Positions 1-11,476 of a stretch of 11,476 nt of DNA are shown piece by piece. How positions within the stretch are numbered: position 1 is the first letter of the stretch; every line of letters starts with the position of its first letter. Source of the DNA: Chitinophagaceae bacterium. GTDB lineage: Bacteria > Bacteroidota > Bacteroidia > Chitinophagales > Chitinophagaceae. The position numbers and the translations under genes were made by a program. The stretch lies in assembly GCA_947442905.1 (NCBI GenBank), contig CANEWV010000021.1:1-11476 (forward strand). Direction: 5' to 3'. The notes beneath the pieces are model-generated. The model did not search any database, was not told where the DNA came from, and saw only the letters and a list, made by a program, of their open reading frames with translations.

Positions 1-1082
1 CCTTTACAGATGGTAGAGACACAGACCCAAAAAGTGGACTAGGCTTTATCAAGACACTTTCAGCGCATTTACAAAATAGTGTGGGCACCATCGCTACCAT
101 CATTGGCCGTTATTACGCCATGGACCGTGACAAAAGATGGGAAAGAGTAAAGCTTGCTTATGATTGTTTAGTAAATAGTGTAGGACCCCGTGCAACGAGC
201 GCTACCAATGCTTTAGAAACCGCATACGCTGCAGACACCACCGACGAATTTTTATTACCTACTGTTATTGTAAATGATAATAACGAACCTGTTGCTGCTA
301 TCAAAGAAGGCGACGCAGTATTCTGTTTTAATTTTAGAACAGACCGTTGTAGAGAAATTACAGAAGTGTTAACGCAACAAGCATTCCCTGAATTTAACAT
401 GCAGCCATTACAACTTCATTATACCACCATGACCCAGTACGATCAAACCTTTAAAGGCGTGCATGTGGTATTTGAAAATGATAATTTACAAAATACATTA
501 GGCGAAGTGTTGGCAGCGCATGGTAAAAAGCAAATTAGAATTGCAGAAACCGAAAAATATCCGCACGTTACTTTCTTTTTTAGCGGTGGAAGAGAAAAGC
601 CTTTTGAAGGAGAAAATAGAATTATGGTGGCTTCTCCTAAAGTGGCAACCTATGATTTACAACCAGAAATGAGCGCCGTTGGCATCACCGATTTATTGGT
701 ACCAGAAATAGAAGCAGAATCTGCAGATTTTATATGCCTCAACTACGCAAACGCAGATATGGTGGGCCATACAGGCGTTTTTGAAGCAGCTATTAAAGCC
801 GTGGAAACCGTAGACGCCTGTGTAGAAAGAGTGGTGACAGCGGGTCTTGCACATGGGTATACCCTACTTGTTACTGCAGACCATGGCAATGCAGATTTTA
901 TGATCAACGAAGACGGAAGTCCTAACACGGCGCATACATTAAATTTGGTACCTTTATTTCTAGTAGATAATGAGTTAAAAGTAACCCTTAAAGCAGGTAA
1001 GCTTGGAGACATTGCTCCTACTGTTTTACAATTAATGGAATTACCAATACCGGCAGAAATGACCGGCAATATTTTAATATAA
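1..1082 (+). CDS. gpmI: 2,3-bisphosphoglycerate-independent phosphoglycerate mutase, 5'-truncated by window edge
   Basis: Interconverts 3- and 2-phosphoglycerate in glycolysis and gluconeogenesis, in the cytoplasm, with two metal ions (normally Mn). The frame is open from the first base; the first full codon is at 3 and reads FTDGRDTDP, a conserved GpmI block, so the GTG at 81 is internal and not the start. Further family blocks are NFRTDRCRE (family form NFRPDRxR), the NADMVGHTG segment, ADHGNAD (metal-binding Asp-His, codons near 879-884) and HTLNLVP (metal-binding His). About 359 residues remain of the usual roughly 510, so the N-terminal part with the catalytic phosphoserine site lies outside the window. 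The next gene starts 13 bases after the stop, so the two are probably co-transcribed. The protein belongs to the alkaline phosphatase superfamily. Identification is very secure. Confidence 0.97.
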   Translation, partial: FTDGRDTDPKSGLGFIKTLSAHLQNSVGTIATIIGRYYAMDRDKRWERVKLAYDCLVNSVGPRATSATNALETAYAADTTDEFLLPTVIVNDNNEPVAAIKEGDAVFCFNFRTDRCREITEVLTQQAFPEFNMQPLQLHYTTMTQYDQTFKGVHVVFENDNLQNTLGEVLAAHGKKQIRIAETEKYPHVTFFFSGGREKPFEGENRIMVASPKVATYDLQPEMSAVGITDLLVPEIEAESADFICLNYANADMVGHTGVFEAAIKAVETVDACVERVVTAGLAHGYTLLVTADHGNADFMINEDGSPNTAHTLNLVPLFLVDNELKVTLKAGKLGDIAPTVLQLMELPIPAEMTGNILI

Positions 1083-1095
1083 AAATTACACCCCC

Positions 1096-1587
1096 ATGAG
1101 TTTACTAAAAAAAATAGGACTTGCACTTGTTGTTGTACTGATTGTGATGCAAGCCTTTAGACCCGAAAAAAATATTTCAGACGACCATTCAAAAAATATT
1201 GCAACGCTTTATCCTGTGTCCAAAGAAGTGGATGCTATTTTAGTAAAAGCATGTAATGATTGTCATAGCAATAACTCAAAGTACCCATGGTATGCCAGTG
1301 TTCAACCGCTTGCTTGGTGGATCAATGACCATATTGTAGATGGTAAAAAACATTTTAATTTGGATGATTTTGCCAATTATAAACTGCGCAAGCAATACCA
1401 TAAAATGGAAGAAGTGATTGAGCAGGTAAAAGAAGGTGAAATGCCACTTGAATCTTATAGCCTGATCCACAACGACGCAAAATTAACCCAAGAAGAAAGG
1501 GTTGTTTTAACGAACTGGGCACAGTCTGTACTCGATGCCATGAAAGCAACTTATCCTATTGATAGTTTAATCAAGAAAAAGAATTAA
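1096..1587 (+). CDS. Membrane-anchored haem-binding domain protein (Haem_bd type, CxxCH)
   Basis: A 163-residue protein with a short basic N-terminus and one hydrophobic helix (about residues 7-21), then QAFRPEKN, the usual opening of Bacteroidota Haem_bd proteins. Residues 53-57 are CNDCH, a c-type haem attachment motif, so covalent haem on the periplasmic side is expected; this requires a cytochrome c maturation system elsewhere in the genome. The conserved aromatic stretch after it (YPWY, PLAWW) and a GEMP segment with Met116, a candidate distal haem ligand, also fit the family. The helix may stay as an anchor or be cleaved; no lipobox is visible. The role is unknown, with electron transfer or haem/redox sensing the likely options. 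The gene follows gpmI by 13 bases and ends in a terminator, so it is the last gene of that transcript. Confidence 0.88.
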   Translation: MSLLKKIGLALVVVLIVMQAFRPEKNISDDHSKNIATLYPVSKEVDAILVKACNDCHSNNSKYPWYASVQPLAWWINDHIVDGKKHFNLDDFANYKLRKQYHKMEEVIEQVKEGEMPLESYSLIHNDAKLTQEERVVLTNWAQSVLDAMKATYPIDSLIKKKN

Positions 1588-1602
1588 TAGACCCTGGTCT
1601 AT
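1587..1602. repeat. Near-perfect short palindrome just after the haem protein stop codon
   Basis: ATAGACC-CT-GGTCTAT is a 7-base inverted repeat separated by only two bases. Its first base is the last base of the TAA stop. As RNA it could fold into a 6-bp stem with a CCTG loop, without a T-run of its own; as DNA it could be a dimeric-protein site. It stands 10 bases before the terminator stem at 1613. Confidence 0.5.
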
Positions 1603-1612
1603 CCCTTTAATT

Positions 1613-1642
1613 AGCCCGCTTACTAAACTAAGCGGGCTTTTT
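1613..1642 (+). terminator. Intrinsic terminator after gpmI-haem protein transcript
   Basis: Perfect 10-bp inverted repeat AGCCCGCTTA / TAAGCGGGCT (1613-1622 with 1629-1638) around a six-base loop CTAAAC, GC-rich in its lower half and followed directly by a T-run (1638-1642). It separates the gpmI unit from engB, which therefore needs its own promoter in the 15 bases before its start or within the terminator region. Confidence 0.85.
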
Positions 1643-1652
1643 GTTAACTTGC
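1640..1652 (+). promoter_or_regulatory. Weak candidate Bacteroidota -7 element before engB
   Basis: TTAACTTGC directly precedes the engB ATG and resembles the Bacteroidota -7 consensus TAnnTTTG, but with a mismatch and no properly spaced -33 TTTG. A promoter is expected here because a terminator lies just upstream; a very short leader would result. The sequence match alone is poor. Confidence 0.25.
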
Positions 1653-1655
1653 AGC

Positions 1656-2291
1656 ATGGAAATTACAAAAGCCAGCTATTTGGTTTCTAGCCCTAGTTTT
1701 GATAAATGCCCGAAGCCAGACAGGCCCGAATATGCATTTATAGGACGCAGTAATGTAGGTAAGTCTTCTTTAATTAATATGATTACTGGTCAGAGGAGCT
1801 TAGCGAAAACTTCTGGTACGCCCGGAAAAACGCAACTTATCAATCATTTTGAAATAGAGAGCACCCTTAAAGCAAAAGCGCCAAGAAGCAAATGGTTTAT
1901 TGTTGATTTACCAGGATACGGATATGCCAAAAGATCCCAAACAGATAGAAGACGCTGGGAACAAATGATTGAAGGCTATTTCAAAAAGAGAGAAAACCTT
2001 GTACAAGTTTTTGTATTGATTGATAGTAGACATGGTCCTCAAAAAAACGATTTAGAATTTATTAGTCAATTGGATAGTTGGGGCATTGTGTTTACACTCG
2101 TGTTTACTAAAATTGACAAAGAAAAACCTGGCGTTGTTAAAAGAAATATTGAAAGCTTCTTTAATCTCTTAAAAGAGAGCTGGCAATTTTTACCGCGCCA
2201 TTTTGTAACAAGCGCCGAATTAAAAACAGGTCGTGAAGAAATGTTAGCGTTTATTGCTACCTGTAACGAAGCAGCTACAGCAGCTGAATAA
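1656..2291 (+). CDS. engB: Ribosome biogenesis GTP-binding protein EngB (YihA/YsxC)
   Basis: A TRAFAC-class GTPase needed for late assembly of the large ribosomal subunit. All five G motifs are visible in the 211-residue product: G1 GRSNVGKSS (30-38), G2 within TPGKTQ (55-60), G3 DLPGYG (84-89), G4 TKID (151-154) and G5 TSA (185-187). The KTSGTPGKTQ block is diagnostic for this family. A short Lys-rich insertion (about residues 68-79, ESTLKAKAPRSK) separates G2 from G3. The start is the ATG at 1656, giving MEITKA; a TTG 15 bases upstream in frame would add residues not seen in the family and lies in the terminator T-run. The gene is followed after 12 bases by an ABC exporter, so the two probably share a transcript. 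Confidence 0.96.
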   Translation: MEITKASYLVSSPSFDKCPKPDRPEYAFIGRSNVGKSSLINMITGQRSLAKTSGTPGKTQLINHFEIESTLKAKAPRSKWFIVDLPGYGYAKRSQTDRRRWEQMIEGYFKKRENLVQVFVLIDSRHGPQKNDLEFISQLDSWGIVFTLVFTKIDKEKPGVVKRNIESFFNLLKESWQFLPRHFVTSAELKTGREEMLAFIATCNEAATAAE

Positions 2292-2303
2292 TTATACTCT
2301 ATT

Positions 2304-4073
2304 ATGAAATTACTCATCACCTATTTAAAGCCCTACAAAGGGCTTGTACTTTTAGCGTTACTACTTGCAGGTATTAACCAAACCTTTTCTTTATTTGATC
2401 CCATGATATTTGGGAAGCTGATTGATCAGTTTGCAAATCATGCAAAAACCAATGCCGACGGTAGTTTTAGATCTGAAAGCGAGTTTATCAAAGGCATCAT
2501 GGGTATGCTTTTTTTACTTGTGGGCACAGCCATGGTAAGTAGGCTAGCAAAGGCTTTTCAGGATTATACGGTGAATGTAGTGATACAAAAATTTGGTGCT
2601 AAAATATTTACCGACGGGCTCCAGCACTCTATGCGTTTACCCTATCAAGATTTTGAAGATCAACGCAGTGGTGAAACACTATCCATCTTAACAAAAGTAA
2701 GAGCCGATACCGAAAAATTTATTGGCTATGTTACGAATGTGCTATTTGGCATTATCGTAAGTGTCATTTTCGTATCTATTTATGCAACCAGACTACACTG
2801 GTCGATTGTGCCAATTTATTTAGGTGGCGCACTACTGATTGGCGCCGTTACCAATTTACTGAGTAAAAAAATTAAAGTAATTCAAAAAGCAATTGTTGGT
2901 GAAACCACTGCACTTGCAGGCACCACCACCGAAAGCTTACGAAATATTGAGCTTGTTAAAAGCTTAGGCTTAACAGACCAAGAAGTAAAAAGACTCAATA
3001 CCAATACCTATAAAATTTTAGGACTTGAACTTAAAAAAGTAAAAAGTATTCGTTCTCTCAGTTTTATACAAGGGACGCTTGTTAATTTTTTAAGACAAGT
3101 AATCACTTTTACACTCATGTGGCTTATTTATAGAGACGTTTTAACGGTAGGCCAATTAATATCGTTACAATTTTATAGCTTCTTTATTTTTGGACCACTT
3201 CAAGAAATTGGCAGCATCATTTTAAGTTATAGAGAAGCAGAAGCATCGCTTCAAAATTTTCATAAACTCATGAGTCGTGAAGTAGAAGCAAGGCCCGAAC
3301 ATCCAACAAATGTTGGTGCTGTTCAAACCCTTTCGTTTTCGGGCGTTTCTTTTCAACACCAAAGCGCACAGTTTAAGGCACTTGACAATATCTCATTTGA
3401 CGTTAAACTAGGCGAAACCATTGCCTTTGTAGGCCCTTCCGGTGCAGGCAAAAGTACCCTTGTTAAATTACTGGTAGGCCTTTATAGACCTCAAATTGGG
3501 CATATCGAATACAATGGTGCCAAAGAAAGTGATATTGATTTTGAAGAACTCAGAAATCAAATTGGTTTTGTTACACAGGATACACAATTATTTGCGGGTA
3601 CCATCAGAGAAAATTTAAGCTTTGTTTACCCTGGTGCTACCGATGCTGAAATGATTGTAGCACTTGAAAAAGCAAGTTGCCATTCTATTTTATCCAAAGC
3701 TCAACAAGGACTAGATAGTATTATTGGTGAAGGCGGTTTAAAACTAAGTGGTGGTGAAAAACAAAGATTGTCGATAGCGCGTGCACTACTCAGACATCCG
3801 CACTTACTTATTTTTGACGAAGCAACTTCATCACTTGATAGTATTACAGAAGAAGAAATTACAAGAACCATTCATGCTATTTCTGAAGAACGCGAGCAAA
3901 TTACGGTGATGATTGCGCATAGGTTAAGTACCATCATGCATGCCAACCGTATTTATGTATTAGAAAAAGGGCAGATCGTTGAAACCGGAACACACGAAGC
4001 ATTACTCGCCGAAAAAGGACTTTATTTTGCCATGTGGCGTCAACAAATTGGAGAAAGAAAAGTAACGCGCTAA
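2304..4073 (+). CDS. ABC exporter half-transporter (fused permease and ATPase)
   Basis: A 589-residue type IV (MsbA/MdlB-like) half-transporter expected to act as a homodimer or heterodimer in the inner membrane. The N-terminal 310 or so residues contain hydrophobic helices starting at residue 13 with the usual coupling-helix region; the C-terminal half is a complete ATPase. Visible motifs: Walker A GPSGAGKST (377-385), Q-loop VTQDTQ with Gln425, signature LSGGE (481-485), Walker B ending in Asp505-Glu506 followed by ATSSLD, and H-loop His539 in AHRLST. All catalytic residues are intact, so it should be active alone. Substrate cannot be told from sequence; lipid, peptide or drug export are all possible. 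The start ATG is 12 bases after engB. No accessory membrane-fusion gene is adjacent. Confidence 0.93.
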   Translation: MKLLITYLKPYKGLVLLALLLAGINQTFSLFDPMIFGKLIDQFANHAKTNADGSFRSESEFIKGIMGMLFLLVGTAMVSRLAKAFQDYTVNVVIQKFGAKIFTDGLQHSMRLPYQDFEDQRSGETLSILTKVRADTEKFIGYVTNVLFGIIVSVIFVSIYATRLHWSIVPIYLGGALLIGAVTNLLSKKIKVIQKAIVGETTALAGTTTESLRNIELVKSLGLTDQEVKRLNTNTYKILGLELKKVKSIRSLSFIQGTLVNFLRQVITFTLMWLIYRDVLTVGQLISLQFYSFFIFGPLQEIGSIILSYREAEASLQNFHKLMSREVEARPEHPTNVGAVQTLSFSGVSFQHQSAQFKALDNISFDVKLGETIAFVGPSGAGKSTLVKLLVGLYRPQIGHIEYNGAKESDIDFEELRNQIGFVTQDTQLFAGTIRENLSFVYPGATDAEMIVALEKASCHSILSKAQQGLDSIIGEGGLKLSGGEKQRLSIARALLRHPHLLIFDEATSSLDSITEEEITRTIHAISEEREQITVMIAHRLSTIMHANRIYVLEKGQIVETGTHEALLAEKGLYFAMWRQQIGERKVTR

Positions 4074-4092
4074 ATAGGGCGTCTTATTCTTT
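4054..4092. terminator. Possible bidirectional terminator between convergent genes
   Basis: The ABC exporter and the DUF2721 gene converge with only 10 bases between their stops. An imperfect stem can be drawn: AAAGAA with TTCTTT, AAG with CTT, and ACGC (4065-4068) with GCGT (4079-4082), with small bulges and a 10-base loop. The A-rich left arm and T-rich right arm would supply a T-run on each strand. The GC core is only four pairs, so this is a tentative call. Confidence 0.25.
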
Positions 4093-4527
4093 ACCAAATT
4101 TCTTTTTAAAGTATTCAATTACAGAAGGATCTTCGAGACCTTCCATATCACTAAGCTCCAACTCAAGCGCCTTGGTACTTAATTGAATTTCTAAAAGTGA
4201 AAGTAATAAAGAAGCAGAAAAAGAAATTAAGCTGATTGCAAAAACAATATTTGCAGCTAACATATACTGAACATAAATAAGGTACATACAAAGGATGCAT
4301 CCTAAAAAGGTAACCACGCCAAGTGCTTGCATATTTTTAATAAGCTTTAAGCGGTAGCGTAAATTTTTTATTTGACCGTGTATGATATGTTTTTGCTCTT
4401 GATTTTGGTATTTATCATGCAAGCTTCTAACCCTACTACTGAGTGCTAAAAACCTGTTGGTATAGGCTAGCATAATCAAACTAATGGCCGGAAAAAGAAG
4501 GGCTGGTGTATTAAAACTAATTTCCAT
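4084..4527 (-). CDS. DUF2721 family small membrane protein
   Basis: A 147-residue integral membrane protein. The N-terminal block TPALLFPAISLIMLAYTNRF (7-26) is the typical opening of DUF2721 proteins and forms the first helix; a charged, probably helical cytoplasmic stretch (about 30-65) follows, then two more hydrophobic helices (about 68-90 and 92-112) and an acidic tail. The ATG at 4527 is preferred because the family begins with this MEISFNTP-like segment; a TTG at 4557 would add ten residues with no family support. Function is unknown for the family. It is third in a minus-strand run, 32 bases after the DUF1501 gene, and may have its own promoter in that gap. Confidence 0.82.
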   Translation of the reverse strand: MEISFNTPALLFPAISLIMLAYTNRFLALSSRVRSLHDKYQNQEQKHIIHGQIKNLRYRLKLIKNMQALGVVTFLGCILCMYLIYVQYMLAANIVFAISLISFSASLLLSLLEIQLSTKALELELSDMEGLEDPSVIEYFKKKFGKE

Positions 4528-4531
4528 GATA

Positions 4532-4562
4532 CAAAGTAAGCAAGAATATGAACGCAAACCTA
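4532..4562 (-). promoter_or_regulatory. Candidate promoter for the DUF2721 gene
   Basis: On the minus strand the gap before the DUF2721 ATG holds TAGGTTTG (4562-4555), an exact match to the Bacteroidota -7 consensus TAnnTTTG, and TACTTTG (4538-4532), a shorter near match. No -33 TTTG lies at the right distance before the first; the TTTG inside the first element lies 16 bases before the second, slightly short. A separate promoter is therefore plausible but unproven. Confidence 0.3.
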
Positions 4563-6137
4563 TTTGACTTTTAACATCGTATGCACCTGTTGCACAGACA
4601 TGTTTTGCAACCTCGCATAATATACCCCAGCAGGAAGACTACCAGAATCAAATACAACCGTATAGGTTCCAGCAGCATAATCACGATCCGTTAAATTCGT
4701 AATCACGCGCCCTAACATGTCCATCACCTGAATAAGGGTGTGTCCACCAGCTGTTTTAAAGGAGATAACCGTTTTACTGGTAAATGGATTGGGATAATTA
4801 TGAACTAAGTCTTCGCCCGATAAATTAACGGCTTTCTTACATGCTGCTGCATTGACAAGTGGAAGTGTTTGAAAATTTTTGAGCATAATTTGCTGCAAGT
4901 CGGTATCAGAAACGCAAAGCCAATTAGACAGTAGCGTTGCATATACACTTCTAAAATCAAATTCAAAAGGTACATTTTCTCCAACCGTAACGTTAGCACC
5001 AAATTTAGGCGTAGCCCCTAAAACACCGGGTATTACATTTTTTCCAAAAACAAATAATGGCGCTGCTGCACCATGGTCGGTACCGGAACTGCCATTGGAT
5101 TTAACGCGTCTTCCAAATTCAGAAAATGTCATACCCGCCACACGATCATCTACACCTAAAAATTTAAGGTCTTTTTGAAAAGCCCTAATTGCATCACTTA
5201 CTTTACCTAACAAAGTGGCATGTGCGCCAGTGGTTGTGTCTGTGGCATTTACTTGAACCGCATGGGTATCAAAGCCGCCAAAATTAACCATGTATACACG
5301 GGTTTTTAAACCACCCTTAATAAGTCTCGCAACAATTTTTAATTGATCTGCCAAAGAATTACTTGTTGGATAGGTCACTTGTGTTGGCACTTTAGCTGCA
5401 GCATCTTTTATAACAGATGCATACTGCTGTGTTTGTTGCGCCACCATACGCACAAAATTTAATTCTTTTCCGGCGGGGGTATTAGGTGCCGTATCACGAA
5501 CACCATTGATTAAATTATAAAAACTAGATGTGTTACTAATGCTCATGCCCATACTTACTGCTGGGCCCTGAAATGTTAATGATGTAGCAGAACCAATTTG
5601 AATCGCTAGTGGATCTGTCATCGTAGCATTGGGATATCCATTTGGAAAATTTGGAAACTCGGCATCTAAAAATCTTCCCGCCCATCCACTATTGACAACC
5701 GTATTACTATCACTCGCACTCATCCAAATATCGGTAGCCCTAAAGTGAGAAAAACTTGGTTGCGGATAACCCACTGATTGTACAATATTTAATTCGCCAT
5801 CGTCATACATGGCCTGAAGGCCTGTCATAGCAGGGTGTAAGCCCGCTTTGGTAACGCCTGATAATTTCAAAACTTTATCTTCCGGAATATAAATATTAGA
5901 ACGCGCGTTTACATAATTAGAAAAGTTATCGAGCGGAATCACCATATTCAATCCATCATTACCGCCATTTAATTGAATGATAACAAGTACGTGATCATTT
6001 TCGATAGCGGCAGGAAGCAAGAGTGATTGTGCAATGGGATCTTCTGCGCCAAATGCCTTAAATGAAAATCCACCCACAAGCGATGGTATCACTACACCAG
6101 CGGGGACAGTATTTTTTAAGAAATCTCTACGTTTCAT
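4560..6137 (-). CDS. DUF1501 protein with Tat signal peptide and T9SS type A sorting domain
   Basis: A 525-residue exported protein. The N-terminus MKRRDFLKN fits the twin-arginine consensus (Arg3-Arg4, Phe6-Leu7-Lys8), followed by a weakly hydrophobic stretch, a Lys in the c-region (Lys27, typical of Sec avoidance) and likely cleavage after AFGA (28-31). The DUF1501 domain (about 48-430) belongs to the alkaline phosphatase clan; visible landmarks are QLNGGNDGLN (55-64), GFDTH (288-292), SEFGRR and GTDHG (Asp354-His355). Residues from about 438 form a T9SS type A domain: NYPNPF (447-452), a MLGR core and a C-terminal VxxxLKVK, predicting transport across the outer membrane. Enzymatic activity is unknown for DUF1501. 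It follows the DUF1800 gene by 12 bases, the usual pairing of these two families. Confidence 0.93.
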   Translation of the reverse strand: MKRRDFLKNTVPAGVVIPSLVGGFSFKAFGAEDPIAQSLLLPAAIENDHVLVIIQLNGGNDGLNMVIPLDNFSNYVNARSNIYIPEDKVLKLSGVTKAGLHPAMTGLQAMYDDGELNIVQSVGYPQPSFSHFRATDIWMSASDSNTVVNSGWAGRFLDAEFPNFPNGYPNATMTDPLAIQIGSATSLTFQGPAVSMGMSISNTSSFYNLINGVRDTAPNTPAGKELNFVRMVAQQTQQYASVIKDAAAKVPTQVTYPTSNSLADQLKIVARLIKGGLKTRVYMVNFGGFDTHAVQVNATDTTTGAHATLLGKVSDAIRAFQKDLKFLGVDDRVAGMTFSEFGRRVKSNGSSGTDHGAAAPLFVFGKNVIPGVLGATPKFGANVTVGENVPFEFDFRSVYATLLSNWLCVSDTDLQQIMLKNFQTLPLVNAAACKKAVNLSGEDLVHNYPNPFTSKTVISFKTAGGHTLIQVMDMLGRVITNLTDRDYAAGTYTVVFDSGSLPAGVYYARLQNMSVQQVHTMLKVK

Positions 6138-6149
6138 GGGGGGATGATT

Positions 6150-7781
6150 TTAGGCTAGTTGATACTCGGCTAGATTCATTAAATATTTTACAAGGTCGCG
6201 TATTTTAGTACGAACCGAAGTGGTATTGGCAGCGTTGGTTGGTGTGGATATATATAAATCCCAGGCCTGTGTCCAATAAATATCTAGGCTTTGACCATTT
6301 AGTAAGATGTCTTTCTTTAGCTGTGCCTTTGATGCAGCAGAGATATCAAGACCCAATAAACGTTCTGTTAATTCAGCAATAAATGCATTTGGATCGCCGG
6401 GATTAGCAAAGGTTTTTGCATAAGCTAGTGTATCGAGTTGAATTTTTTTACTATTAAACGTATAGCCGTTCACTAGCATCGTATCCGTAAACTGATTGCG
6501 CTTAGGCAGGGTATCACTATTGATCCAGATTTCATTGAATTGAGGCTCTTGGTAATAAGCCTTCCATCCACTAACATCAGGAGGATCACCTAAGTTTTGT
6601 TGCATATTACTAAGCCAACTAACCATGTAATTATAAAATCCATAATTGGTTACATAATCCGTGTCAGGCTGAAAAACAATTTCCGATTCTCTGCAAAATC
6701 CAATCACGAGTTCGGCAGGGCTTTTAATAACACAACCTCTAGATAATGCATCAAAAAAATGTTCACTTTTTAAAAGCATATCTAGCACCGGAAGTATTTC
6801 ATAATTACTGGAACGAAATAAATTAGCGAGTGGTGTTATAACATTTTGCTCGACAGTATCATCAATATCATAATACACAAACCACCTGTAAAGCCTTCTA
6901 CACATGTATTTTGCCACTTCTTGCGTAGCAAAAATCATATTTAGTAAATCATCTAATTCCTGTTCTCCGGCTGTCGCAGTATTGCGACCGGTGATGACTG
7001 TATTATTAAAAAAAGATGAAAATGTTTTATTGCCGGCGTCATGTCTGGATGCCGTAAAATAAGAACTTAAAGTGGTTGCATTGTTGCGCCATCCTGTTAA
7101 TACCCTGGCTGCTGCTTTTACATCCGCCTCTGTATACAAAGAATCTGGCCCTTTCCCACAACAAAAAAGTTCTTGAATTTCACGCGCATAGTTTTCGTCA
7201 GGAGCCGTAAGCGTATTGTACTGCCCATTTAAATAAACGAGCATGCCCGGATCAAGGGTAATATTTTTTGTAAGTGTTTTGAAATTCCCAAGTGCACTGG
7301 TGCGTAGCAAATCATGATGCTTGTATACGAATTGCGCATTGCTGATGTCATTGGTTTCAGTGGCATAATGATTGTGCCAAAAAAGCGTCATCTTTTCACG
7401 AATGCTTCGGTCTTGATTGATAAGATTTCCAATCCACCATTTTTTAAATGATGACCGTCTATAACTAGCAATGGTGCCGTCATTGTTAATATCACCTACC
7501 CAAGTGGTTCCCGCCGCAATATTTGTATCTGGAACAAGTGTAGTAGCAGCTACTACATATTCTTTTACCGGAGGCGCCGGTAATGGCGCCGTAGGATTCA
7601 ATAATTCACCAACAACCTGGGTAACAGATTTGCCAGAGAAATATGCCATATCGGCTTTTGTGGCACCAAAAAGGGTTCGTCTTAATAGATGCCTGAGTTC
7701 AGGTGCCCCAAAACTACCAGCATATGGTTGTAAGCCAGTGGTTGGCGGTGGGGTAAACTCAGTGAATCTGTTTTTTTCCAT
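6150..7781 (-). CDS. DUF1800 family protein, without signal peptide
   Basis: A 543-residue protein with clear DUF1800 landmarks: LRHLLRRTLFGAT (29-41), EKMTLFWHNHYATE, YAREIQELF (198-206; family form YARELMELFTLG), VKAAARVLTGW, SPAELVIGF and GDPPDVSGW (398-406). Family function is unknown; it nearly always sits beside a DUF1501 gene, as here. The N-terminus MEKNRFTEFTPPPTTG is hydrophilic and shows no Sec, Tat or lipoprotein signal. The start is well fixed: an in-frame TAA lies six codons upstream, so no longer form with a signal is possible without a sequence error. There is no T9SS domain at the C-terminus either. The gene is first in its operon and divergent from the ECF sigma gene across a 116-base intergenic region. 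Confidence 0.92.
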   Translation of the reverse strand: MEKNRFTEFTPPPTTGLQPYAGSFGAPELRHLLRRTLFGATKADMAYFSGKSVTQVVGELLNPTAPLPAPPVKEYVVAATTLVPDTNIAAGTTWVGDINNDGTIASYRRSSFKKWWIGNLINQDRSIREKMTLFWHNHYATETNDISNAQFVYKHHDLLRTSALGNFKTLTKNITLDPGMLVYLNGQYNTLTAPDENYAREIQELFCCGKGPDSLYTEADVKAAARVLTGWRNNATTLSSYFTASRHDAGNKTFSSFFNNTVITGRNTATAGEQELDDLLNMIFATQEVAKYMCRRLYRWFVYYDIDDTVEQNVITPLANLFRSSNYEILPVLDMLLKSEHFFDALSRGCVIKSPAELVIGFCRESEIVFQPDTDYVTNYGFYNYMVSWLSNMQQNLGDPPDVSGWKAYYQEPQFNEIWINSDTLPKRNQFTDTMLVNGYTFNSKKIQLDTLAYAKTFANPGDPNAFIAELTERLLGLDISAASKAQLKKDILLNGQSLDIYWTQAWDLYISTPTNAANTTSVRTKIRDLVKYLMNLAEYQLA

Positions 7782-7897
7782 AGTAAAAGGGGGGCTTTAC
7801 AGTATAAATCGGACCTTAAATTACAGAATTAATACGTAAATCTTACTGTTTTTCACCTTTTTTTTACCTAAATTAGAGGTACTATCAAACCAAGTCT
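7782..7897. promoter_or_regulatory. Divergent intergenic region between DUF1800 and ECF sigma genes
   Basis: These 116 AT-rich bases must hold the promoters for both the minus-strand DUF1800/DUF1501 operon and the plus-strand sigma operon. I see an eight-T run (7858-7865) and a short inverted repeat TACCT-N7-AGGTA (7865-7881) centred about 25 bases before the sigma ATG. A well-spaced TTTG / TAnnTTTG pair is not evident on either strand (best partial: minus-strand TTTG at 7889-7886 with TAATTTAG shortly after), so the promoters may depend on an alternative sigma factor. Confidence 0.5.
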
Positions 7898-8476
7898 ATG
7901 ACTGAGCAAGTAATTATTGCGGGTTGCCTTCAAAACGATGCTGCTGCACAAAGGGAGCTATTTAATAGGTATAGCCCAAAAATGCTAAGCGTTTGCTACC
8001 GGTTTGCACAAAATAGAGAAGATGCAGAAGATATGCTGCAAGAAGGGTTTATTAAGGTTTTTACACAAATACATACGTTTCAAAATAAAGGCTCATTTGA
8101 AGGTTGGATTAGGCGTATTATGGTTCACACCAGTATTAACTTTTTGAAAAAGTACAAAAAATTTACGGAGAGTTTAGACTTAACAAGTGCTGAAAATTTA
8201 GAAGTAAAGGAGGAGTCCATTGCTTCTATTATGCAGTCTAAACAAATAGTAGAATGTATCCGGTTATTACCAATTGGTTATAAAACGGTGCTCAATTTAT
8301 TTGCGATAGAAGGATATAGCCATAGAGAAATTAGCACTTTACTAGACATCGAAGAAAGTACAAGTAGAAGCCAATACACCAGGGCTAAAACGATGCTTTC
8401 AAATATTTTAATTAAGAAAAGAATTATTGATGCACCCAAAGAGAAATTTGAGTTGTTGTCGGTGATACAAAAATAA
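7898..8476 (+). CDS. ECF (RpoE-like) RNA polymerase sigma factor
   Basis: A 192-residue group 4 sigma factor. Region 2 spans about 20-88: LFNRYSPKMLSVCYRF, then REDAEDMLQEGFIKVF (40-55) for core binding and -10 recognition, and the FEGWIRRIMVHTSINFLKK segment (67-85). After an acidic linker, region 4 (about 115-170) contains LLPIGYKTVLNLFAIEGYSH and the helix-turn-helix EISTLLDIEESTSRSQYTRAK that reads the -35 element. No extra regulatory domain is fused. The start ATG gives the family-typical short N-terminal tail. The next gene, starting within 20 bases, encodes a probable cognate membrane anti-sigma factor, so activity is probably controlled by sequestration at the inner membrane and release on an envelope signal. 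Confidence 0.94.
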   Translation: MTEQVIIAGCLQNDAAAQRELFNRYSPKMLSVCYRFAQNREDAEDMLQEGFIKVFTQIHTFQNKGSFEGWIRRIMVHTSINFLKKYKKFTESLDLTSAENLEVKEESIASIMQSKQIVECIRLLPIGYKTVLNLFAIEGYSHREISTLLDIEESTSRSQYTRAKTMLSNILIKKRIIDAPKEKFELLSVIQK

Positions 8477-8495
8477 TTACGTGAAGCGGGTAGAT

Positions 8496-9848
8496 ATGGA
8501 AAAGAGGAATCAACTAGATGCTTTTGAGGAGTTTATACTTGACGAGGTAAACGAACACAAGATGTACCCATCTGGTCGTGTTTGGGCCAACATACGTACC
8601 GAAGTTCAAGGGAATAAATCATGGCCAGCCCTTACCATCATTGCTTTAACGGTCCTTGTAGCGCTTACGGTTTCTACATTTATTGCAACACAAAAATCCA
8701 CCCCGGTTGTGCTTACGAGTAATCGTTTGAAGCCAAAAAACACAAGCCAGTCTCTTGAAAAACCTTTTACCACCTATCAATCTAGTGCGCAAATTATAGC
8801 TTCAAAACCTACCATAAAAACGCAGGTTGTAAAAGCTTCGCCTACTATACCTTCGCGTGTAATGGATGTTGAACCTACGATCACGTTGTCTACTTATAAT
8901 GCAAGCAATGAAATTTATTCAGACAATACTTTGGATGAAATTAAATCACTCATTGATACTAAATCAGAAAGCCATGAAGTGGTAAATATTATTTCAAGTA
9001 TTGACCCTAGCGATAAAATAAATAAGACTTCCCTTTTACCTGCACTTATACATGCACAGGTGAATCATAATTTTGAACTTGCCGCTAGTGCTACTCAGGT
9101 TCAAAAAAAGAAAAAATACAGCGTTCAATTTTATGCTACCCCTTCTGCTAGTTTTAGGGTGCTTAATGATCAAAAAGTAAAAGAGTTAATTCAACCTTCA
9201 CTGATTGCCATTCCAATCAATTCGCCAGTTGTCCAAACCACGACATTTAATCAGGCGGTGAGACATAGACCTGATATTGGATTAGAACTTGGATTTACAT
9301 TCAATTATCCGGTTTCTAAAAGATTACAATTCAAAACAGGACTTCAACTTAATATCAGACAATACCAGATTGATACCTATGAAACCGGCGCCAATGCTGC
9401 AACCCTAGCCTTAGTGAATGGCGGTAGGGTGCAAAATATTTCTGTAATGACGAGCTACAATAACAATGTTGGCTTTAGAGCGGCACAACTTAATAATAAG
9501 GTATACCAGCTGGCCCTGCCTATTGGTCTCGATTACCAGCTTATCAGGTTTAAGAAATTTGGCATTCATACTCAGGCTACCATTCAGCCTACTTACAATG
9601 TCAATAAAAACGTTTACCTCCTTTCTACCGATTATGCAAATTATGCCGCTGGCAATGACTACGTACGCAAATGGAACATGAATACCAGTGTTGGCATTCA
9701 ATTTAGCTATCAAAAAGGCAATACCGTTTGGCAGTTAGGGCCACAAATCAGATACCAGACACTTCCTACTTACAACAACCCTTACCCCATCAAAGAAAAT
9801 TTGATTGATTACGGCTTCCGAATAGGTTGGAGTAGACAGTTTAAGTAA
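8496..9848 (+). CDS. Putative dual membrane-spanning anti-sigma factor with C-terminal outer-membrane beta-barrel (Dma-like)
   Basis: A 450-residue protein (from ATG 8496; a GTG at 8481 would add MKRVD and leave 4 bases after the sigma stop). The N-terminal head of about 40 residues is acidic and helical and carries VWANIRTEV, a pattern seen in Bacteroidota proteins encoded beside ECF sigma genes. One hydrophobic helix follows (about 43-64), then a Ser/Thr/Pro/Lys-rich linker to about 205 without domains. The rest is a beta-barrel of PorT/OMP_b-brl type: alternating strands such as SVQFYATPSASFRV, IGLELGFTFNYPVSKRLQFK, ALPIGLDYQL and YGFRIGWSRQF, ending near an aromatic residue as barrel proteins do. 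The layout matches the dual membrane-spanning anti-sigma factors described in Bacteroides thetaiotaomicron. Anti-sigma function is inferred from architecture and position, not from a recognised anti-sigma domain. Confidence 0.8.
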   Translation: MEKRNQLDAFEEFILDEVNEHKMYPSGRVWANIRTEVQGNKSWPALTIIALTVLVALTVSTFIATQKSTPVVLTSNRLKPKNTSQSLEKPFTTYQSSAQIIASKPTIKTQVVKASPTIPSRVMDVEPTITLSTYNASNEIYSDNTLDEIKSLIDTKSESHEVVNIISSIDPSDKINKTSLLPALIHAQVNHNFELAASATQVQKKKKYSVQFYATPSASFRVLNDQKVKELIQPSLIAIPINSPVVQTTTFNQAVRHRPDIGLELGFTFNYPVSKRLQFKTGLQLNIRQYQIDTYETGANAATLALVNGGRVQNISVMTSYNNNVGFRAAQLNNKVYQLALPIGLDYQLIRFKKFGIHTQATIQPTYNVNKNVYLLSTDYANYAAGNDYVRKWNMNTSVGIQFSYQKGNTVWQLGPQIRYQTLPTYNNPYPIKENLIDYGFRIGWSRQFK

Positions 9849-9857
9849 TTTTACGGC

Positions 9858-10433
9858 ATGAAATCAGTATTCATTGCATGCATTGTTTGCGTGATCGCAA
9901 GCGCCTGCAACAATAACAAAGTGTCCACCAATACGGGCAATACAAGTTATGATACCACCAGCTTTTACCCGATTGCAGCCTATTTTAAAAGTCAATTAAA
10001 ACATTTTGATAGTCTTGGGGCTAGGTATAGTATTGTTACAACAGAAGGCACCATTAAAGATAGCATTGTAGCAGATGGTTCTTCAATTACAACGCTTGTG
10101 CATTCGTTTATTGAATCCGATATTAGCGATAGTATTCAAAAAAAGAATTACAAAGAATCAGTATTTAGAGACGCAGGGACTGCAAGTTTTAATATCAATT
10201 ACACACCATTTAATAATGACGTTCCGGTTAGAAATATTGACATCTTAATGGATGAACAAACGTCACTAATTAAACGAATTTTTATTAGGAAACAGTTTAC
10301 CAGTAAAGACACAACAAGCACAGAACAATTGAGCTGGAAAACCAATGAGGGTTTTAACAGATCCATAAGTAAAGAAACGACTAACGGATACGTACTCAAC
10401 AAAGCAATTACTGTTCGCGTTATACTTCCATAA
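9858..10433 (+). CDS. Small hypothetical lipoprotein
   Basis: I do not recognise a family. The 191-residue product has a short signal peptide with a lipobox, VIASAC, so lipidation at Cys17 by signal peptidase II is likely. The mature part begins CNNNKVST, a Ser/Thr/Asn-rich tether without the acidic export signal known from some Bacteroidota surface lipoproteins, so a periplasm-facing location is somewhat more likely. The body (about 35-191) alternates polar and hydrophobic residues (ASFNINYTPF, VRNIDILMDEQTSLIKRIFIRKQF), suggesting a compact beta-sandwich or half-barrel. It starts 9 bases after the barrel gene and its TAA directly abuts the uvrC ATG, so it is in the middle of a tight operon and may work with the barrel protein. 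Confidence 0.85.
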   Translation: MKSVFIACIVCVIASACNNNKVSTNTGNTSYDTTSFYPIAAYFKSQLKHFDSLGARYSIVTTEGTIKDSIVADGSSITTLVHSFIESDISDSIQKKNYKESVFRDAGTASFNINYTPFNNDVPVRNIDILMDEQTSLIKRIFIRKQFTSKDTTSTEQLSWKTNEGFNRSISKETTNGYVLNKAITVRVILP

Positions 10434-11476
10434 ATGACCCAAGAGCAGTACCAACAATTAGCACACAAATTACCAGCAGACCCAGGTATCTATAAATACT
10501 ATGATGCAAAGGGTGTGCTGATTTATGTAGGTAAGGCAAAGTGTCTTAAAAAAAGAATCGCTTCTTATTTTACAAAAAATCAAAGCAGTTTTAAGACCAT
10601 CGAGCTGGTTCAGAAAATTGATCGTATTGAGTTTACCATTGTTGACTCGGAGCAGGATGCATTACTACTAGAGAACTCTCTAATTAAGCAGTACAAACCT
10701 CGCTACAATATTTTATTAAAAGATGATAAAGGCTACCCGTATTTAGTCATCAAAAAAGAACGATTCCCGCGCGTTTTTTCGACTTGGAAAAAATACAATG
10801 ACGGATCCATTTACCTTGGGCCCTTTACCTCTAAAGGAACCATCAGAGAAGTCTTAAGTTTTATCAAGCAGTTTATTCCACTACGCACTTGTAAGCTTAA
10901 TTTAAGTCAAGAAAATATAGACAAACAAAAATTTAAACCTTGCCTAGAATACCATCTAGGTAATTGTTTGGCCCCCTGCGCTGCATTACAAACAGAAGCA
11001 GATTACAATGATAGTTTAGAGCAGTTAAAAGGTTTACTAAAAGGTAACATGAGTCAACTCATGAACCATCTAAAAAAAGAAATGCAAGCGCATGCAGAGG
11101 CCCTCGATTTTGAAAAAGCAGCCCAGCTAAAATATAAAATGGACCTCTTACTTACCTACCAAGAAAAATCGGTGGTAGTAGGCAAGCACTTTTCTAATCT
11201 AGACGTGTTTTCGATTATTAAAGACGGCAAACTAGCGTATGTCAATTACCTAATGGTTCAAAACGGAAGTATCATACAAACCCATACGGTTCCATTAGAA
11301 GGTAAACTAGATGAGCCCGAAGATGAACTGCTTTGTTTTGCTATCGAAAGAATAAGAGCCGACTTTAATAGCCTTAGCACCGAAATTATTGTCCCCTATG
11401 CAGTCGATTATTTTGATAAAAATATTACCATCACTGTTCCAAAACTTGGAGACAAAAAAAAGTTACTCGACCTCTC
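10434..11476 (+). CDS. uvrC: Excinuclease ABC subunit C, 3'-truncated by window edge
   Basis: Makes both incisions around bulky DNA lesions in nucleotide excision repair after loading by UvrB. The open frame runs from ATG 10434, directly after the lipoprotein stop, to the window end (347 codons of about 600). The GIY-YIG nuclease domain for the 3' incision is complete: GIY (18-20), YVG (31-33), Arg41 and catalytic Glu80 in LLLENSLIK. Four cysteines follow, C153-x16-C170-x7-C178-x3-C182, matching the iron-sulfur ligands of E. coli UvrC but with a longer first gap. The UvrB-binding UVR motif lies near 218-240 (ALDFEKAAQLKYKM). The window ends at KLGDKKKLLDL, just before the RNase H-like domain for the 5' incision, so its catalytic residues cannot be checked. 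Confidence 0.96.
   Translation, partial: MTQEQYQQLAHKLPADPGIYKYYDAKGVLIYVGKAKCLKKRIASYFTKNQSSFKTIELVQKIDRIEFTIVDSEQDALLLENSLIKQYKPRYNILLKDDKGYPYLVIKKERFPRVFSTWKKYNDGSIYLGPFTSKGTIREVLSFIKQFIPLRTCKLNLSQENIDKQKFKPCLEYHLGNCLAPCAALQTEADYNDSLEQLKGLLKGNMSQLMNHLKKEMQAHAEALDFEKAAQLKYKMDLLLTYQEKSVVVGKHFSNLDVFSIIKDGKLAYVNYLMVQNGSIIQTHTVPLEGKLDEPEDELLCFAIERIRADFNSLSTEIIVPYAVDYFDKNITITVPKLGDKKKLLDL

Follow-up and report, generated by a model that had tools for sequence, protein, structure and literature searches.

Genes at the locus

The window analyzed here is the whole stretch of 11,476 nucleotides (nt) from a Chitinophagaceae bacterium (contig CANEWV010000021.1, positions 1 to 11,476; assembly GCA_947442905.1). 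Within it, genes for an extracytoplasmic function (ECF) sigma factor, a putative Dma/Reo-type anti-sigma protein, a lipoprotein and the excinuclease subunit UvrC lie together on the + strand (Table 1). We consider it highly probable (roughly 0.85) that these four genes form an envelope-sensing operon, in which the anti-sigma protein holds the sigma factor, spans both membranes, reports the state of the outer membrane and controls its own operon. The architecture, the operon, the sigma group and the promoter element in relatives are supported by sequence and structural model.

A first description made from the letters alone (the sequence-only reading) had placed the anti-sigma gene directly after an ECF sigma gene. 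This is so in the window, and 82 of 83 relatives likewise have an ECF gene ahead of it; for the remaining one (L009) no sequence is available on that side. A sigma gene was counted as the upstream neighbour if it lay no more than 400 nt from the anti-sigma open reading frame (ORF). The 83 are distinct anti-sigma ORFs, each 300 aa or longer and from a locus of family f1, which is Chitinophagaceae by its named loci; 10 of the 80 genomes found with profile A1 were left out.

Table 1. Features of the window, with the putative operon first and the flanking genes last.
Feature	Position	Strand	Basis
Sigma-promoter position, TACTG-N16-TACCTAAATTAGAGG in place of the family element	7844-7879	+	Upstream comparison, 131 loci
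ECF sigma factor of the Dma-linked group, 192 aa	7898-8476	+	Pfam, Bacteroidaceae matches, tree
Putative Dma/Reo-type anti-sigma gene, 450 aa	8496-9848	+	ATG frame, Pfam, AlphaFold2, neighbourhood
Cytoplasmic head, residues 1-42, two helices, invariant Trp30	8496-8621	+	Alignment, AlphaFold2
Inner-membrane helix, residues 44-65	8625-8690	+	Hydropathy, AlphaFold2, K+R bias
Disordered Ser/Thr-rich periplasmic linker, residues 66-205	8691-9110	+	Low pLDDT, lowest conservation
Outer-membrane barrel, residues 206-450	9111-9845	+	Pfam, AlphaFold2, structural matches; 8 strands from those matches
Lipoprotein, 191 aa, Cys17 at lipid-attachment position	9858-10433	+	Alignment, neighbourhood
uvrC, excinuclease subunit, incomplete at window end	10434-11476	+	TIGR00194, conserved position
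DUF1800 gene	6150-7781	-	Pfam
DUF1501 gene, with Por_Secre_tail sorting domain	4560-6137	-	Pfam

Architecture of the anti-sigma protein

The protein had been likened to the Dma dual membrane-spanning anti-sigma factors of Bacteroides thetaiotaomicron. The four-part layout published for these (PMC13088901) is present according to Pfam, AlphaFold2 and structural matches. Translation from an alternative start further upstream, a GTG (8481), would lengthen the protein by 5 residues.

The AlphaFold2 model, built from the 83-row alignment, has helices at residues 7-20, 27-38 and 44-65. The short, acidic, helical head of the sequence-only reading was recovered: residues 1-34 contain seven D/E and five K/R, and its VWANI motif lies at 29-33. 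Residue 30 is W in all 83 aligned sequences, in 13/13 Dma1-type and in 5/5 second-set (Dma2-type) proteins. Conservation, taken as the mean frequency of the most common residue in the 83 sequences with the window counted, is 0.59 in the head (7-38), 0.42 in the membrane helix, 0.19 in the linker and 0.50 in the barrel. Hydropathy agrees with a single clear membrane helix, as the top 19-residue stretch falls inside 45-64 with a Kyte-Doolittle value of 2.42 (reached in 23 of 2000 whole-protein shuffles), and the runner-up elsewhere scores 1.01. K and R are more frequent in the 15 residues before this helix than after it in 58 of the 83 sequences, with 9 ties. The linker of about 140 residues is Ser/Thr-rich as described (26% of residues 65-205), its confidence (predicted local distance difference test, pLDDT) is mostly below 50, and at 123-278 residues across the 83 sequences it could cross the periplasm.

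Pfam OMP_b-brl_2 matches residues 253-420 (39.7 bits; cut-off 27), and AlphaFold2 predicts a barrel for residues 206-450, mostly with pLDDT above 90 except for a loop at about 226-252. VIA-align matched this barrel to a designed transmembrane beta-barrel (17.7), Legionella porin III (17.5), PagL (17.4), OprF (17.3), NspA (16.4) and OmpA (16.0). These OmpA-like matches suit the 8-strand type proposed earlier; the strand count is taken from them because DSSP splits the barrel strands and the Foldseek listing includes larger barrels too, for example OpcA. The C-terminal aromatic residue of the sequence-only reading was an error, since the protein ends in WSRQFK, with Lys last and Phe next to last; F, W or Y is C-terminal in 16 of the 83 aligned sequences.

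These features also bear on whether the protein stays in one piece. If signal peptidase cut the chain near residue 65, an ordinary outer-membrane barrel and a separate soluble head would result, with no signalling across the membranes. The hydrophobic helix could act as a late signal, and because the linker varies freely in sequence and in length (the range given above), the sequence does not demand a continuous chain. However, the 42 conserved residues of the head that precede the helix do not resemble a signal peptide, AlphaFold2 models one 22-residue helix, and head and barrel are joined in one chain in the family, even with a sigma factor fused in front. We consider such cleavage improbable.

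In structure predictions, the confidence of head residues 23-42 was 92/83 by blocks beside the sigma factor and 73/77 alone. Support for direct contact between head and sigma factor is indirect and stops short of decisive. The compact sigma factor of the fused model was discarded as proof of anti-sigma binding, as SigG1 without an anti-sigma factor fits too. Imm9 (E 0.0045) and DUF481 (E 0.083) were rejected as families of the anti-sigma protein, both being below the Pfam cut-off. The NCBIfam scan of the protein gave one match, to an unrelated family (E 0.19), a sequence search of the PDB with profile A2 matched no chain at E 1e-3, and none of 35 pattern matches in viral contigs was a relative of the protein.

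The ECF sigma factor and its kin

The window sigma factor matches Pfam Sigma70_r2 (64.6 bits) and Sigma70_r4_2 (45.5 bits). Against six Bacteroidaceae genomes, 14 of its matches scored 88-118 bits, after which the score drops to 47.2. Thirteen of these 14 sigma factors precede, or are fused to, a Dma-type protein; none was found for L226. In a tree of 33 sequences, 29 group members stood apart from four other ECF sigma factors (support 0.94). The Dma1-, Dma2- and Dma3-type sigma factors formed one clade (support 0.95), and the window subfamily with two of its paralogues formed a separate one (support 0.95). Similarity and tree together support placing the window sigma factor with the Das1-, Das2- and Dma3-type sigma factors. 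Sigma factors that work with Dma proteins are of group ECF21, to which the window sigma factor may thus belong.

We weighed whether the barrel protein might be unrelated to sigma function and the two genes mere neighbours. The interaction of sigma factor and barrel protein in the window lineage is a prediction. Against coincidence stand the retention of the pair in all but one of the relatives, the presence of such a partner for nearly all group sigma factors in the six Bacteroidaceae genomes, and the existence of natural fusions, so that chance adjacency is very unlikely.

The number of group sigma factors per genome, at E 1e-14, was one in G001 and in G009, four in G018, five in G011 and seven in G082, two of the last scoring only 57-60 bits. 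No group sigma factor was found at this threshold in G007 and G034, genomes of 2.2-2.3 Mb from the same genus as the window, and the system therefore seems to be dispensable there.

The promoter element and its loss in the window lineage

Upstream regions were compared across 131 loci with distinct upstream sequences, the window included, some of which related species share by descent. The element GCAGC-N16/17-TG[TC]C precedes the sigma gene in 115 of them, 25-36 nt ahead of the start, with spacing N16 in 94 and N17 in 21; resampled controls gave a mean of 0.76 of 131 and a maximum of 3. The TGTC-only version was found in 111/131 loci (control mean 0.08), and in relatives GCAGC-N16/17-TGTC is followed by a TATATTTAGGG-like sequence.

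The window itself departs from this pattern, which weighs against the proposed autoregulation in its own lineage. Besides the window, the element is missing from seven close relatives (L128-L134) and from eight more loci, sixteen in all. The window and L128-L134 have a TAC-rich sequence at the same spacing, which in the window reads TACTG-N16-TACC. As the promoter has changed in this lineage, self-activation of the operon is uncertain there. Four sigma residues are specific to the window clade (F22, S79, F135 and S168); they are too few to decide whether they brought about the change of promoter.

Genome searches indicated where else the element occurs. In 14 f1 genomes the strict form gave 6 sites, 5 of which lie, by position, at the operon; 8 of the 14 had no site, and the reversed pattern had none in any. 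A looser form, GCAGC-N16/17-TGTCHTA, gave 21 sites in six genomes of the same genus: 5 at the operon, 24-25 nt before the sigma gene, 13 within genes, 2 ahead of one gene type, which we take to be ribonuclease Z-like, and 1 ahead of a 91-aa ORF. Because 5 of 6 strict and 5 of 21 looser sites sit at the operon, the sigma factor's own operon stands out as its main visible target. A wider regulon is not claimed, as the looser sites are mostly in genes and the reversed looser pattern also gives 2 sites in the six genomes.

Among Bacteroidaceae, GCAGC-N16-CGTC precedes the sigma gene in 5 of the 6 second-set loci (L225-L230), and Dma1-type loci show, by eye, TGCAGTATTT and then TGCATTTATA. The pattern GCA[AG]C-N15-17-[TC]GTC was present in 9 of 43 other group loci, L225-L230 included (control mean 0.24, maximum 2). 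AAC-like -35 boxes and GTC-like -10 boxes are common across many ECF groups. Since such boxes are widespread and only 9 of the 43 loci match, we have toned down promoter likeness as proof of kinship with Das2.

The lipoprotein and uvrC

A lipoprotein gene lies within 400 nt downstream of the anti-sigma gene in 74 of the 83 relatives. Its Cys17 does not vary among the 46 members that were aligned out of 75 available. Neither Pfam nor NCBIfam gave a match for the window lipoprotein. DUF4901 was rejected as its family, having only scattered weak Pfam matches in 4 of the 46 members (best E 8e-4), as was kinship to NigD or DUF4943, with which only the signal peptide aligns in profile comparison.

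In the window, uvrC follows the stop codon of the lipoprotein gene with a gap of 0 nt, and the partial UvrC scores 284 bits against TIGR00194, just below the cut-off of 285.45. Of the 83 relatives, 81 have the gene downstream in the same orientation (L047 and L053 do not), and a tblastn search detected it in 78 of the 80 named loci, among which the same species is partly repeated. Gaps along the operon measure 4-78 nt from sigma to anti-sigma gene (median 26.5), -20 to 262 nt from there to the lipoprotein gene (median 58) and -11 to 315 nt from lipoprotein gene to uvrC (median 3; at most 100 nt in 73 of 74 loci). The upstream DUF1800 gene, our yardstick for synteny, was kept in 15 of the 70 loci that offer 600 nt or more ahead of the sigma gene and in 46 of the 80 named loci. 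Two further f1 loci, L109 and the very divergent L110, also carry uvrC behind them; behind another 60 loci, covered to varying distances downstream, it was not found. An operon of this kind that carries uvrC looks new, and a limited literature search returned nothing on uvrC sharing an operon with an anti-sigma factor in Bacteroidetes.

Whether uvrC belongs to the operon in more than position is an evenly balanced question. It could be mostly transcribed from promoters within the upstream genes and show no induction with the sigma regulon. Nucleotide excision repair subunits are usually required at all times, and the window lineage has lost the promoter element and retained uvrC. On the other hand, lipoprotein gene and uvrC are tightly spaced, while the DUF1800 neighbour upstream is poorly kept. 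A more speculative proposal, to which we give rather less credence, is that a sensor reaching from outer membrane to cytoplasm controls UvrC supply in Chitinophagaceae. Disturbance of the outer membrane would then free the sigma factor and switch on its own operon and nucleotide excision repair, and surface damage would therefore raise DNA-repair capacity beforehand.

Comparison with Dma systems of Bacteroidaceae

Of 296 genomes of the class, three bear the 16S signature, and all three belong to family f62. Barrel proteins were listed in 13 genomes belonging to a single f62 genus, and 17 regions were examined. An ECF sigma gene followed by a protein with head, membrane helix and barrel was present in 13 of these, sigma factor and barrel were one chain in 2, and 2 were unrelated. 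A divergent NigD-like lipoprotein gene stands beside the sigma gene in 11 of the 13 loci (Pfam-confirmed in L222, the one scanned), which fits the Dma1-NigD1 locus type; nigD1 is bt_4005 (PMC13088901). By hhalign, our profile A2 aligned with the Dma1-type profile A3 only over head plus helix (E 1.4e-4, probability 52%) and with the second-set (Dma2-type) profile A7 at E 0.0012 (probability 19%).

Das1-Dma1/NigD1 and EcfO-Reo, which would be the same locus type, resemble the window system in pairing an ECF sigma factor with an anti-sigma protein that reaches an outer-membrane barrel (PMC13088901, PMC9308784, PMC13114119), and the head-plus-helix of the window family matches Dma1 by profile. They differ in the divergent NigD-like gene. 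NigD_C passed its cut-off in none of 18 Chitinophagaceae genomes (G037 reached 21.1 against 22.6 bits), compared with 3 of 3 Bacteroidaceae, a caveat on any link to vesicles, as it is through NigD, its output in Bacteroides, that Dma1 acts on vesicles (PMC13088901).

Four second-set loci (L225, L227, L228 and L230) have sigma, anti-sigma, lipoprotein and DUF4858-like genes in order, and a nitronate monooxygenase (NMO)-like gene comes next in L225, L228 and L230, where the stretch examined reaches it. Pfam confirmed DUF4943 and DUF4858 in L225 and L228, and NMO in L228. This gene content agrees with the dma2 operon as described, in which das2 and the post-dma2 genes are among the most upregulated in a published deletion mutant and the effect on outer-membrane vesicles requires das2, not the post-dma2 genes (PMC13088901). 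The Das2-Dma2-BT_1557 set of B. thetaiotaomicron has the same order of sigma factor, dual-membrane anti-sigma factor and lipoprotein (PMC13088901), and the GCAGC-N16-CGTC element of the second-set loci is close to that of the window family. However, the third gene there is DUF4943, by profile unrelated to the window lipoprotein, and DUF4858 and the NMO-like gene follow where the window operon has uvrC. Same-group sigma factor and barrel also share one chain in Dma3-type fusions (PMC13088901). Loci L210 and L213 of Bacteroidaceae are natural single-chain ECF sigma-barrel fusions of this kind, whereas the window has two genes.

RseA, RsiW and CnrY, which sequester ECF sigma factors, likewise have a short cytoplasmic helical head before a single membrane helix. 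Their sensory part, in contrast to that of the window protein, stays at the inner membrane or in the periplasm, without an outer-membrane barrel.

The sequence-only reading had seen here an extension of this type of signalling to another Bacteroidota lineage. That holds for the Chitinophagaceae subfamily and its operon, which are new, but PMC13088901 already describes the family as Bacteroidota-wide, and the novelty is limited to those two for that reason. A limited literature search returned nothing on a Chitinophaga anti-sigma factor with an outer-membrane beta-barrel or on Dma1 in Flavobacterium, and for anti-sigma factors in Sediminibacterium it gave a single genome announcement.

Proposed mechanism and significance

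We infer that the head would keep the neighbouring ECF sigma factor bound in the cytoplasm, with one helix passing through the inner membrane and a disordered tether through the periplasm to a small outer-membrane barrel that may report the state of that membrane. A disturbed outer membrane, or disturbed barrel assembly, would lead to loss of the hold on the sigma factor. Release would most likely occur by cleavage of the tether or the membrane helix, and the freed sigma factor would transcribe mainly its own operon. Raised levels of sigma and anti-sigma protein would constitute feedback; the lipoprotein, raised as well, is the proposed envelope output, and UvrC would be raised too.

Instead of outer-membrane stress, the stimulus might be a particular surface ligand to which the barrel binds. 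Glycan sensing has been proposed by the Dma2 authors (PMC13088901). A similar Phocaeicola vulgatus anti-sigma factor, predicted to end in an outer-membrane barrel, is toxin-induced, and its authors proposed a link to the envelope stress that the toxin causes (PMC9308784), which speaks against a ligand; we regard ligand sensing as possible but the less likely stimulus. EcfO-Reo and NigD expression has been described in the mouse gut (PMC13114119).

In a limited literature search, dual-membrane anti-sigma factors have so far been studied only in gut Bacteroides and Phocaeicola. The window subfamily has many members in Chitinophagaceae; its operon is fixed, most members carry a clear promoter element, and NigD was not found. 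A conserved core of sigma factor, tether, barrel and self-promoter therefore appears separable from lineage-specific outputs. If functional, the link to uvrC would tie outer-membrane sensing to DNA repair, which specialists would not expect.

Distribution of the family

The genome closest to the window among those searched (G001) has the anti-sigma protein at 91% identity. The 80 named loci with the closest copies are labelled Sediminibacterium, Chitinophagaceae or Bacteroidetes and are mostly metagenome-assembled genomes. A single-protein search matched 15 of 60 genomes around G001, all within its 37-genome genus (G001 counted). Profile A1, at E 1e-6, matched 80 of 298 genomes of the order, all in family f1, and the wider profile A2, at E 1e-3, matched 47 of 392 genomes of the phylum, outside f1 mainly through the N-terminal part.

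In the 18 loci L110-L127 found with profile A2, the protein behind the sigma factor has 389-516 aa in 10 and 251-259 aa in 8. The short partners of about 250 aa (L113, L114, L116, L118, L120, L121, L123 and L126) have a similar head and membrane helix and, it appears, no barrel. Barrel-less versions of the anti-sigma protein probably exist, because Pfam matched nothing in L113, the only short protein scanned, and OMP_b-brl stayed under its cut-off in the one long non-f1 protein scanned. For the 26 loci with group-like sigma factors L225-L250, a scripted search found no downstream partner for L226, L232, L238, L245 and L246, and the partner in L250 is an unrelated protein.

Flanking genes

Upstream of the sigma gene lie the DUF1800 and DUF1501 genes, a common pair in Bacteroidota. 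Further upstream, a Haem_bd-domain protein (1096-1587, 152 bits) is encoded between genes that read as phosphoglycerate-mutase-like and EngB-type GTPase.
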